A stretch of DNA of 64,000 nucleotides from Comamonadaceae bacterium. GTDB lineage: Bacteria; Pseudomonadota; Gammaproteobacteria; Burkholderiales; Burkholderiaceae_C. Made by a program: the position numbers and the translations under genes. The stretch's first letter is position 1. Each line of letters opens with the position of its first letter. The DNA is taken from the NCBI GenBank assembly GCA_947375135.1, contig CANCER010000005.1, positions 110,544-174,543 of the forward strand, given 5' to 3'. Below, in pieces: positions 27,463-30,627 of this stretch. Under the pieces are notes generated by a model. It had not been told where the DNA came from. It made no database searches and saw only the letters and a list, made by a program, of their open reading frames with translations.

Positions 27463-27554
27463 GTCCCGCACCATTCCCGCACAACGAAGGGCCCACAGGC
27501 ACTTCGTTGCGCAAGGTCAAGCAAGGCCCACAGGGATGTGCCTAGACTGAAAGC

Positions 27555-28778
27555 GTGACTGCTTTCACGCTGCTTCTTTACATCGCTCTCGCGCTGGGCT
27601 CCCAGATATTGCTGGGTGTGGCCTATGCGCTGCTGTGGCGGCCCAGCCCGCTGGTGCCCAAGGCGCAACCGGAACCTCTGCGCGCAGCAGGCGCCTGGAG
27701 CGGACTGCGGGCCTTCCGGGTGGCGAGCCGTAGCTACGAGGATGCAGCGCAGACCCAATGTTCTTTTTACCTGGAGCCGGTGGACGGTCTGGCACTGCCG
27801 GCCTACCAGCCCGGGCAGTTCCTCACCTTCCACCTGGTGCCGGCCGCTGCCCCGGGCGCACCGGCGGGCAGCATCACGCGCTGCTACTCGCTGTCCGAGC
27901 GCCCCGCGCCCGACCATTACCGGGTCACCATCAAGCGGGTGGCCGCACCCGCCGAACCCGCAGGACTTCCGGCAGGAGCCGCGTCCAATTATTTCCACGA
28001 CCATGTGCATGCAGGCGACACCCTGCACCTGCGTGCGCCTGCCGGCCACTTCTATCTGGACACCGGGGCGCACACGCCGGTGGTGCTGATCGCGGGGGGC
28101 ATCGGCATCACGCCCATGATGAGCATGTTGCGCTGGTGCGCGCAACACCAGCCGCAGCGCCTGGTACACCTGTACTACGGCGTTCGCAACAGTGCCGAGC
28201 ACGCCTACAAAGCCGCGCTGGAAGACATGGCCACCCGACTGCCGCATCTGCAATTGCATGTGGTCTACAGCAAGCCGCTGGCGCAGGACACATTCGCAAT
28301 CGACTACCGGCACCGGGGCCATGTCGATCTGGCCTTGCTGAAGCAGACCCTGCCCCACGGCGCGCAGCAGTTCTACATTTGCGGCCCCGCCGCCATGATG
28401 GAGAGCCTGGTGCCCGGCCTGACGGAGTGGGGCGTGGCGGCAGCCGATATCCACTTCGAGGCCTTTGGTCCGGCCACCGTGCGCCTGTCCGCAGCAGAGC
28501 CCCCAAGCCAGGAGGCGGCCGTGCCGATCTCCGTGCAGTTCCAGCGCAGCGGCAGAACGCTGGCCTGGAGCGGCAAGCCCTCCAACCTGCTCGACTTTGC
28601 CGAAGCCCACGGCATTGCGGTGGAGTCCGGTTGCCGAAGCGGCAGCTGCGGCAGTTGCGTGAGCACCATCGTCAGCGGTGCGGTCGACTACGCCAGCCCG
28701 CCTGACTTTGACCTGGCACCCGGGCAATGCCTCTTGTGCGTGGGCCGGCCGCGCAACGCACTGACGCTGGACGCCTGA
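27555..28778 (+). CDS. Membrane-anchored NAD(P)H/FAD oxidoreductase with C-terminal plant-type 2Fe-2S domain
   Basis: N-terminal TM helix; FNR-type FAD/NAD motifs (CYSLSERP, VVLIAGGIGITPMMSML); 2Fe-2S CRSGSCGSC...CLLC. Confidence 0.85.
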   Translation: MTAFTLLLYIALALGSQILLGVAYALLWRPSPLVPKAQPEPLRAAGAWSGLRAFRVASRSYEDAAQTQCSFYLEPVDGLALPAYQPGQFLTFHLVPAAAPGAPAGSITRCYSLSERPAPDHYRVTIKRVAAPAEPAGLPAGAASNYFHDHVHAGDTLHLRAPAGHFYLDTGAHTPVVLIAGGIGITPMMSMLRWCAQHQPQRLVHLYYGVRNSAEHAYKAALEDMATRLPHLQLHVVYSKPLAQDTFAIDYRHRGHVDLALLKQTLPHGAQQFYICGPAAMMESLVPGLTEWGVAAADIHFEAFGPATVRLSAAEPPSQEAAVPISVQFQRSGRTLAWSGKPSNLLDFAEAHGIAVESGCRSGSCGSCVSTIVSGAVDYASPPDFDLAPGQCLLCVGRPRNALTLDA

Positions 28779-28783
28779 CTGCC

Positions 28784-29362
28784 ATGCGCCCCAAGCTCTT
28801 CACGCGCGAGATCCTGCCCTTCACCGTGTCGTTCGCGGCCCTGGCCGTGGTGACGCTGTTGCTCGATGCCACGCTGCACTACTTCAACGGAGTCTGGATA
28901 GGACGCTACCTGGGCATTGCCGGCACACTGATTATTCTGTTTTCCTTTCGCTACTCGCTGCGCAAGCGCAAGCTCATCCAGAGTGGCAATCCCGTCACCC
29001 TGCTGCGCCGGCATGAGTACATGGCCTGGCTGGGCTCCCTGCTGATCCTGGTGCATGCCGGCATCCACTTCAATGCGATTCTGGGTTGGCTGGCCGTGGC
29101 CGCCATGCTGATCAACATCGGCAGTGGACTGGCGGGCAAGTACCTGCTGGACAGGGCCCGCAAGCGCATGCTGGACGCACGCCAGGCCATGCTGCGCCAG
29201 GGCGTGCCCGAGTCCGAGATGGAGGAGCGGGTTTACCTCGACACGCTGACCTTCGACATGGTCAAGCAGTGGCGTGCCGTGCACTTCCCGATCACGCTGG
29301 CCTTTGCCGTGCTGGCTCTGGCCCACATCATTGCCGTGTTTCTTTTCTGGGGCTGGAAATGA
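28784..29362 (+). CDS. Multi-TM membrane protein, possible b-type cytochrome
   Basis: 192 aa, ~4 TM segments with histidines in or near helices (RRHEYMAWLGSLLILVHAGIHF; VHFPITLAFAVLALAHIIAVFLF). Confidence 0.6.
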   Translation: MRPKLFTREILPFTVSFAALAVVTLLLDATLHYFNGVWIGRYLGIAGTLIILFSFRYSLRKRKLIQSGNPVTLLRRHEYMAWLGSLLILVHAGIHFNAILGWLAVAAMLINIGSGLAGKYLLDRARKRMLDARQAMLRQGVPESEMEERVYLDTLTFDMVKQWRAVHFPITLAFAVLALAHIIAVFLFWGWK

Positions 29363-30066
29363 CGCGCCGCTGGGTCTGGATACTGGTCAGCCTGAACCTG
29401 GTGCTGCTGGTGGCGCTGGTCTTTGTCTACCCGCACCTGATGGTGAGCCCGGGGGGCGTCATCGCCGGGCATGGCGCAATAGCCACCGACTGTTTTGCCT
29501 GCCACGCCCCGCTGCGCGGCGCCTCGGCTGCGCGCTGTATTGCCTGCCATGCCCTGCCCGACATTGGCATACGCAGCACTAAGGGCAAGCCCATCGTGCA
29601 CAAGACGCTCAAGGTGTCCTTTCACCAGGACCTGCTGCAGCAAAACTGCATGGCCTGCCACAGCGACCACGCCGGCCCCAAGCTGCTGCAAAAAAGCCGC
29701 AAGCCCTTTTCGCACGCGCTATTGCGCAGCGCTGTGCGCGAGCAGTGTCAGAGCTGCCACCGCGCGCCCGCCGACAAACTGCATAGCAAGATCACCGGCA
29801 ACTGCAGCCAGTGCCACGCACAAAACGCCTGGAAGCCCGCCAGTTTTGACCATGAGAAGTCCTTCGTGCTGGACCGGGACCACAACGTGGAATGCGCCAC
29901 CTGCCATGTCAACAACGACTACAGCCGTTACACCTGCTACGGCTGCCACGAGCACACGGTGGCGAACATTCTGCGGGAGCACCGCGACGAGGGCATACGC
30001 AACCTGGACAACTGTGTGGCGTGCCACCGCAGCGCCGATGGCGAAGGAGGCGGGGGTGACGATTAA
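29359..30066 (+). CDS. Octaheme c-type cytochrome with N-terminal membrane anchor
   Basis: Eight CxxCH motifs: CFACH, CIACH, CMACH, CQSCH, CSQCH, CATCH, CYGCH, CVACH; start overlaps the upstream stop. Confidence 0.88.
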   Translation: MTRRWVWILVSLNLVLLVALVFVYPHLMVSPGGVIAGHGAIATDCFACHAPLRGASAARCIACHALPDIGIRSTKGKPIVHKTLKVSFHQDLLQQNCMACHSDHAGPKLLQKSRKPFSHALLRSAVREQCQSCHRAPADKLHSKITGNCSQCHAQNAWKPASFDHEKSFVLDRDHNVECATCHVNNDYSRYTCYGCHEHTVANILREHRDEGIRNLDNCVACHRSADGEGGGGDD

Positions 30067-30078
30067 AAGGGGCACGAC

Positions 30079-30627
30079 ATGACAAAGCACCCCACGCCGG
30101 TTCACCAGATCGAGTTGCGCATCACGCAGTTGTCGGAGCTGTTCAACTCCATGGACCCGACGCCGTTTCACCACTGCGACCTGGACCGCGACGCCCAGGA
30201 GTACCTGGAGAGCTGGGCCATGGGCTTCTCGCACACAAGCCACTTCCGCATCGTGGTGCATATCGAGCACATGCCAGCGAATGACCCGAGTGCCACGGTG
30301 GTCGAGGCCATTCACAATTTCTTTGACTACAAGGCCGACCTCACCAGGCGCCAGATTCAGCTGCTGCTGCAGGAGGGGCGCACCAGCCTGTTGATCGGGC
30401 TGACGTTCCTGATGGTGTGTCTGCTTGGGGCGGACTTTCTGTCCCACTTCGCAGGCAATGCCTTTTTGCGCGTGCTGCGGGAGAGCCTGATCATCGGCGG
30501 CTGGGTCGCCATGTGGCGCCCGCTGCAGATCTTTTTGTACGAATGGTGGCCCTCGGTGCGGCGCGGGCGCATCTTCCGCAATCTGGCCAAGGCGGGTGTG
30601 CGGGTGACACCGGCCTCAGTCAAATGA
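30079..30627 (+). CDS. Uncharacterised membrane protein
   Basis: 182 aa; two C-terminal hydrophobic stretches; co-directional 12 bp after the cytochrome. Confidence 0.65.
   Translation: MTKHPTPVHQIELRITQLSELFNSMDPTPFHHCDLDRDAQEYLESWAMGFSHTSHFRIVVHIEHMPANDPSATVVEAIHNFFDYKADLTRRQIQLLLQEGRTSLLIGLTFLMVCLLGADFLSHFAGNAFLRVLRESLIIGGWVAMWRPLQIFLYEWWPSVRRGRIFRNLAKAGVRVTPASVK

Follow-up and report, generated by a model that had tools for sequence, protein, structure and literature searches.

Three adjacent genes in a 64,000-nucleotide stretch of a Comamonadaceae bacterium genome (GenBank assembly GCA_947375135.1, contig CANCER010000005.1, positions 110,544 to 174,543; hereafter 'the window', to which positions refer) form a conserved unit that probably serves as a three-component system for exporting electrons across the inner membrane. 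Electrons would pass from NAD(P)H through a membrane-anchored reductase (FNR, gene 1) and a predicted di-haem membrane protein (cytB, gene 2) to a periplasmic octahaem c-type cytochrome (OCTA, gene 3), and from there to other periplasmic redox proteins. The genome that contains the window is a 4.2 Mb draft.

A conserved three-gene unit

Genes 1 to 3 are encoded on the forward strand with almost no intervening sequence. Only 5 nt separate gene 1 (27555-28778) from gene 2 (28784-29362), and the ATG of gene 3 (29359-30066) overlaps the TGA of gene 2 by 4 nt (ATGA). An earlier note on this DNA had described four co-directional open reading frames at 27555-30627 as a single transcription unit leading from NAD(P)H through FAD, a 2Fe-2S cluster and membrane haem to a periplasmic octahaem cytochrome. 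All four reading frames are present at these positions, and the proposed layout is supported for genes 1 to 3.

To define the unit we scanned 84,980 species genomes with OCTA, which returned at least 551 relatives. The best 80 were kept, and gene order was counted over 79 scorable loci, where shortfalls include truncated contigs. The cytB gene lies directly ahead of OCTA in 78 of the 79 loci, and FNR, cytB and OCTA are contiguous and in this order in 72. The nearest loci are those of Rhodoferax lacus and uncultured Comamonadaceae; together with the relatives sampled at the level of the order, they indicate that the window comes from a Burkholderiales host of the Rhodoferax kind. The overlap between cytB and OCTA is 4 nt in 44 loci, and in most loci the distance from FNR to cytB lies between -8 and +6 nt.

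A second measure comes from 349 evenly drawn Burkholderiales genomes that were searched with cytB and OCTA profiles. The cytB profile is found in 11 of these genomes and the OCTA profile in 12. Every one of the 11 also has OCTA, directly beside cytB, and the twelfth OCTA genome (G610) carries a decayed copy. The hypergeometric probability of this co-occurrence is 6e-20, without phylogenetic correction, and the distance matrices of FNR, cytB and OCTA correlate with Mantel r values of 0.79-0.86, a result that shared ancestry alone could give. Genes 1 to 3 are thus a conserved unit and associate more than expected by chance. Decayed copies of the module, with split or stop-interrupted frames, are located at G454:C1:860467-861343 and G610:C1:2296874-2297351 in genomes that are otherwise complete.

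Gene 4 (30079-30627, co-directional, 182 aa) begins 12 bp after gene 3 and encodes a membrane protein, as the note had stated, with one hydrophobic segment and no family match. Its presence close to the trio is limited to the three nearest relatives, in two of which it is not adjacent, and it is also present in genomes G014 (96% identical), G026 and G015, which have no full-length octahaem match. Because gene 4 travels independently of the trio, we restrict the unit to genes 1 to 3 and reject gene 4 as a component. The expectation that four genes would co-occur in other genomes therefore holds for the first three and fails for the fourth.

Predicted properties of the three proteins

Gene 1 has a GTG start and codes for a protein of 407 aa in which the Pfam domains FAD_binding_6 (PF00970), NAD_binding_1 (PF00175) and Fer2 (PF00111) all score above the cut-off. 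A single hydrophobic segment is located at the N terminus (residues 4-22), and the C-terminal domain is of the plant-type 2Fe-2S kind, with the cysteine motif CRSGSCGSC at 28632-28658 (Cys360, Cys365 and Cys368) and a fourth cysteine, Cys395, at 28737-28739. These features bear out the description of gene 1 as a transmembrane (TM)-anchored FAD/NAD(P)H oxidoreductase. Among 17 homologues, the four cysteines are invariant, as are the RxYS motif for FAD and the sequences GGIGITP and CGP. The best match of a profile of these homologues in the PDB is the reductase domain of an NAD(P)H-using flavohaemoprotein (1cqx, E 2.7e-73), followed by NqrF, dioxygenase reductases and b5 reductases. Judging from its family, the protein would take its electrons from NAD(P)H, and the charge pattern after the anchor, read by eye, suggests that the catalytic part is cytoplasmic.

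Gene 2 codes for a protein of 192 aa for which no Pfam family reaches the cut-off, and searching PDB sequences with its profile found nothing. It nevertheless shows the five predicted TM helices and two HX13H motifs that characterize the HX13H inner-membrane superfamily. The first motif, His77-His91 (29012-29056), is assigned to TM3, and the second, His167-His181 (29282-29326), to TM5, where it is preceded by W163 (WX3HX13H); this tryptophan is found on TM5 only. An SGXXG motif (Ser114-Gly118, 29123-29137) is predicted to lie on TM4. Two HX13H motifs are present in 79 of 80 cytB homologues, a pattern that arises in only 0.65% of trials when the cytB sequence of the window is shuffled. His77, His91, His167 and His181 are retained at 99-100%, His95 is also conserved, and S114, G115 and G118 are invariant among 35 homologues. 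The candidate haem ligands that the earlier note had proposed to look for are thus present, as two HX13H pairs.

By hydropathy, cytB has four to five membrane segments (9-27, 37-55, 83-101, 98-116 and 170-188), with which the helices of an AF2 model (mean pLDDT 71.6) are consistent. Sub-threshold Pfam names across the 35 homologues are DUF4405 (19 members), LptF_LptG (11) and Ni_hydr_CYTB (9). DUF4405 and Ni_hydr_CYTB are families of membrane b-type cytochromes, whereas LptF_LptG, the second most common name, is not. A plasmid homologue gives weak matches to Ni_hydr_CYTB and Ferric_reduct, and the Sphingobium homologue scores 16.1 bits against PF01794, where the cut-off is 28. Profile comparisons also relate cytB to plasmid membrane proteins (97.6%) and to 299-aa inner-membrane proteins that sister genomes encode together with 24-haem cytochromes (hhalign 97.7%). 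The clusters with these 299-aa proteins resemble the PCC3 systems discussed below, and the one in G014 includes a 50-haem protein. We predict that cytB is a di-haem b membrane protein, and we infer that its haems are held by the pairs His77/His167 and His91/His181.

Gene 3 codes for a protein of 235 aa with eight CxxCH motifs between 29491 and 30027 (starting at 29491, 29536, 29647, 29746, 29803, 29893, 29935 and 30013) and one N-terminal hydrophobic segment resembling a signal anchor. The anchored octahaem cytochrome described previously, including the overlap of its start with the stop of gene 2, is therefore confirmed in the sequence. Cytochrom_c3_2, Cytochrom_CIII and Cytochrome_C7 all score above the Pfam cut-off, in keeping with a class III/c7-like protein, and remote PDB profile matches include a sixteen-haem cytochrome. 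Eight haem motifs are carried by 73 of the 80 OCTA homologues and ten by the other 7. The histidines of the eight haem motifs are invariant in all 80, and so are nine histidines outside the motifs (38, 89, 104, 119, 142, 165, 175, 199 and 208). Given these nine additional residues, all eight c haems can have bis-His ligation, and the protein would therefore act as a carrier or store of electrons rather than as a catalyst. OCTA likewise looks like an electron wire or store, and not an octahaem enzyme, by its spacing of about 26-29 residues per haem, which falls within the range tied to wires by He et al. 2017 (PMC5566968).

Other identities for gene 3 were considered and rejected. No NCBIfam model of the octahaem enzymes acting on tetrathionate, nitrite, hydroxylamine or sulfite (OTR, HAO, ONR and MccA) matches the protein, in which every haem can be bis-His; the possibility that it belongs to a characterised enzyme family, which had been raised as a check, finds no support among these models. 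The MtrA/DmsE decahaem model (TIGR03508) gives 23.3 bits against a cut-off of 192.2, and gene 3 has eight haems, not ten.

Plasmid-borne relatives in other classes

A search of plasmid proteins yielded 48 records with distant relatives, at approximately 22-28% identity among the matches listed. Of 11 records inspected, 9 from alpha- and gammaproteobacteria have the order FNR-cytB-OCTA with overlapping joins. These intact trios are from Sphingobium, Alteromonas, Legionella (two), Qipengyuania, Rhizorhabdus, Sphingomonas, Caulobacter and Salinimonas. In the Gluconobacter record a truncated gene 2 precedes the cytochrome, and the arrangement in the Emticicia record is different. Plasmid FNR proteins are 630-660 aa in length. 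The three trios that were read at the sequence level each have seven CxxCH motifs in the cytochrome and retain both HX13H motifs in cytB; their FNR proteins carry an extra N-terminal region, absent from the window FNR, that starts like a signal sequence and contains several His and Met residues. Profiles support the homology of plasmid cytB and cytochrome to the window versions.

Genes for copper or heavy-metal regulators, oxidases or transporters are located near 8 of the 9 intact plasmid trios in the stretches shown. Plasmids are biased towards such cargo, and we therefore treat the copper link as a lead only.

Two of the inspected plasmid records deserve separate mention. A seven-haem trio of an Alteromonas macleodii plasmid (L155, 6207-18642) is directly upstream of a NiFe hydrogenase operon and its maturation genes. 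On a plasmid of Emticicia oligotrophica, a member of the Bacteroidota, a pyridine-nucleotide flavoprotein with a 4Fe-4S domain is followed by cytochromes with 23 and 40 haems (L157, 3522-9732). A comparable case is G013:C266 (L165, 6377-11465), where a single strand encodes a Pyr_redox_3 flavoprotein, a PCC3-like membrane protein and a multihaem cytochrome. This flavoprotein is a possible NAD(P)H partner for the PCC3-like system. The flavoproteins beside large multihaem cytochromes in G013 and Emticicia hint that coupling to NAD(P)H may be more widespread within the HX13H superfamily.

Genomic neighbourhoods and candidate acceptors

The best candidate among named acceptors of OCTA is the SHP/DHC system. 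SHP is an oxygen-binding cytochrome for which NO dioxygenase activity has been reported, and heavy-metal transporters had earlier been noted in the vicinity of the SHP operon (PMC2909971). Genes of the SHP-DHC(-b561) type lie inside the 8-kb flanks of 9 of the 79 loci, on both sides of the module and in both orientations; we estimate that SHP would be far rarer than this in random 17-kb windows. By inspection, an SHP-like and a DHC-like gene lie just downstream of the module in G022 (L002), and SHP and DHC-type genes are within approximately 10 kb of it in G454. At L079 (4770-8750), OCTA directly follows an SHP-DHC-b561 operon and a DUF3616 protein, with neither cytB nor FNR. In the genome of the window, SHP is on the same contig, approximately 88 kb upstream of the trio. 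In G022:C20 (L164, 1-9731), a DHC-b561-two-component operon is divergent from the gene pair for a PCC3-like membrane protein and a 24-haem cytochrome, with a further multihaem gene.

Cation efflux genes are found near 11 and cation P-type ATPase genes near 14 of the 80 Burkholderiales loci, counts for which there is no background rate for comparison. Across the 79 Burkholderiales loci, neither porin nor hydrogenase genes recur in the neighbourhood. The genome of the window does encode three MtrB/PioB-type porins above the cut-off (G000:C21:40224-42398, C13:19433-21640 and C44:11533-13947), at least two of which adjoin multihaem cytochromes of the paired-CXXCH kind. A ten-haem module in G653 (L152, 5243-9521) is followed, after approximately 160 bp, by a nifE-like gene and then by nifN/nifX-like genes. 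A link to Nif was rejected, as this arrangement is seen in one genome only and in none of the 80 loci.

Within the window, no porin gene is found around the trio at 25.8-34.7 kb; besides gene 4, the neighbours there code for an SDR protein, aquaporin Z (a channel of the plasma membrane), a further membrane protein and a GGDEF-EAL protein. An inverted repeat, AACGAAG...CTTCGTT, was noticed by eye between the aquaporin Z gene and gene 1 (27484-27509) and could be a terminator of the aquaporin gene.

Relationship to known electron transfer systems

Literature searches, which covered a minority of subscription papers, found no named system with this gene set beyond the clusters described by He et al. 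2017 (PMC5566968). That study reports porin-less clusters comprising a periplasmic multihaem cytochrome, a short five-helix HX13H protein and, mostly, 'another redox protein'; it judged them unlikely to serve extracellular electron transfer and neither named nor tested them. The trio resembles these clusters in its multihaem cytochrome, short HX13H membrane protein, redox protein and lack of a porin, but the membrane protein gene is downstream of the cytochrome in the published sets and upstream here. We consider it likely that the two are the same, on a comparison with the main-text description, where the redox protein is unnamed. The earlier note did not recognise the gene set as a named system; this stands insofar as no name was found, although clusters of this general kind have been described. 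What is added here is a strict three-gene definition, the identification of the third gene as FNR, the plasmid versions that cross classes, and the links to SHP and copper.

The PCC3 clusters of Sideroxydans, Leptothrix and Gallionellaceae are also related. In PCC3 and PCC4, the inner-membrane protein has five helices, with HX13H motifs on helices three and five and SGXXG on helix four, a pattern that the same authors connect with the sites that hold two haems in ferric reductase, NOX and cytochrome b (PMC5566968). cytB is homologous to the PCC3 membrane protein and shares the HX13H pairs and SGXXG, and the cytochromes have related c3/c7-type repeats. However, membership of PCC3 was rejected. 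The trio has no counterpart of the outer-membrane porin, the extracellular cytochrome, the periplasmic cytochrome with approximately 21-27 haems or the membrane protein of approximately 300 aa, and its single cytochrome has eight haems (ten in 7 of 80) rather than more than 20. No PCC3 membrane protein was found in the genome of the window.

In NOX and ferric reductase (FRD, PF01794), and in MsrQ-Fre, electrons pass from NAD(P)H to FAD, then to two b haems on TM3 and TM5 and to an acceptor outside (PMC5676040). The trio would have the same layout, but it differs in its separate reductase and membrane genes, extra 2Fe-2S domain, lack of PF01794 and multihaem cytochrome acceptor. The reductase half of flavohaemoprotein (Hmp/FHP) resembles gene 1, which in contrast has no globin, is anchored in the membrane and ends in a 2Fe-2S domain. 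Gene 1 was accordingly rejected as a flavohaemoprotein, given that there is no globin match and that NF009805 scores 244.7 bits against a cut-off of 432 and matches the reductase part only. The SHP-DHC-cytochrome b561 operon (PMC2909971) shares a short chain from an inner-membrane b to a periplasmic c cytochrome, but its proteins are from other families and it is proposed to be quinol driven.

Proposed electron route and its alternatives

In the route that we favour, FNR would be anchored by its N terminus with its catalytic domains in the cytoplasm, where it would oxidise NAD(P)H and hand electrons on one at a time from FAD, by way of the 2Fe-2S cluster, to cytB. Two stacked b haems in cytB would carry the electrons across the inner membrane in the manner of the ferric reductase/NOX TM domain. 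cytB would then reduce the anchored OCTA, a bis-His wire and store on the periplasmic side, which could supply periplasmic redox proteins; SHP/DHC are the likeliest of these, and more generally the supply may serve detoxification or redox balancing under metal or O2 stress. The sequences directly show the gene order, conservation, co-occurrence, domain content, candidate haem ligands and homology to PCC3-like membrane proteins; the donor, cofactor binding, ligand pairing, topology, outward direction and acceptor are our interpretation. The cell interior is negative relative to the periplasm, so that electrons moving outwards go along with the membrane potential, which would oppose the reduction of NAD+ by such a route. 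Outward flow would cost the cell energy, and venting, defence or the supply of periplasmic reductant would fit this cost better than respiration does.

Several observations count against this proposal. The window cytB has no match to the FRD/NOX family PF01794 at E<=1, and a Foldseek search with its model, itself of moderate quality, gave no significant fold match, the top hit being the NOX5 TM domain at E 0.47. The AF2 model of OCTA is unusable (pLDDT 50). Most trio loci have no SHP nearby, and the association across genomes is weak, with SHP present in 97 of 349 Burkholderiales genomes (~28%) and in 6 of the 11 that contain the module. Moreover, the role that He et al. 2017 (PMC5566968) prefer for the related PCC3 and PCC4 membrane proteins is linked to quinone, and four loci (L076, L081, L086 and L087) have cytB and OCTA with no adjacent FNR. 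The last two points are also arguments for the main rival to NAD(P)H export, in which cytB is a quinol-oxidising cytochrome b that reduces OCTA, and FNR is a side entry or has another partner. We judge this quinol route to be unlikely. FNR belongs to the unit in 72 of the 79 loci, where its gene often overlaps or all but touches the next one, and it is likewise part of the trios on plasmids from other classes; no quinone-site motif was identified in the trio. An involvement in metal chemistry, particularly that of copper, whereby the module would reduce or buffer metals or metal-oxidising enzymes in the periplasm, seems to us similarly doubtful. It would account for the metal genes beside 8 of 9 intact plasmid trios, the His- and Met-containing region of plasmid FNR and the cation transporters near Burkholderiales loci, but plasmids are rich in metal-resistance islands anyway, the transporter counts have no background rate, and the window FNR does not have the extra region. 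The suggestion in the earlier note of a metal reductase finds no direct support.

The remaining alternatives connect OCTA to partners farther from the inner membrane or reverse the direction of flow. The chain might take up electrons, with OCTA receiving them from a periplasmic or extracellular donor such as H2 or Fe(II) and the other components reducing NAD(P)+. The hydrogenase operon beside the Alteromonas trio, hosts from the Fe/Mn-oxidiser lineages Leptothrix, Sphaerotilus and Ferrigenium, and the three MtrB/PioB-type porins with multihaem cytochromes in the genome of the window are all compatible with this idea. We nonetheless regard uptake as improbable, given the absence of a recurrent porin or hydrogenase neighbour in the 79 loci, and because inward flow opposes the membrane potential and would be steeply uphill from Fe(II) to NAD+. 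The same three porins, two of them beside multihaem cytochromes, could instead belong to MtrAB/PioAB-type outer-membrane conduits, encoded away from the trio, that OCTA would feed. Such a role in extracellular electron transfer appears very improbable, since no porin is part of the module or a conserved neighbour, and since porin-less clusters were judged unlikely to have this function (PMC5566968).

Implications

If export from NAD(P)H is the function of the trio, then a conserved, compact and mobile gene set would let cells discharge reducing power from the cytoplasm, or put it to use, beyond the inner membrane. Known electron routes to periplasmic multihaem cytochromes mostly start from quinol. 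We tentatively raise the possibility, which we hold with less than even confidence, that the trio represents a distinct class of split NOX-like NAD(P)H:periplasmic multihaem cytochrome oxidoreductases, which would bypass the quinone pool in alpha-, beta- and gammaproteobacteria and serve varied acceptors (SHP, copper systems and hydrogenase). Were this true, the HX13H membrane proteins of PCC3 and their relatives may be coupled to NAD(P)H rather than to quinone. The trio links three poorly understood subjects, namely SHP, plasmid copper islands and porin-less multihaem cytochromes, and it offers a small, testable system for determining what drives the HX13H membrane proteins of many iron-oxidiser clusters.

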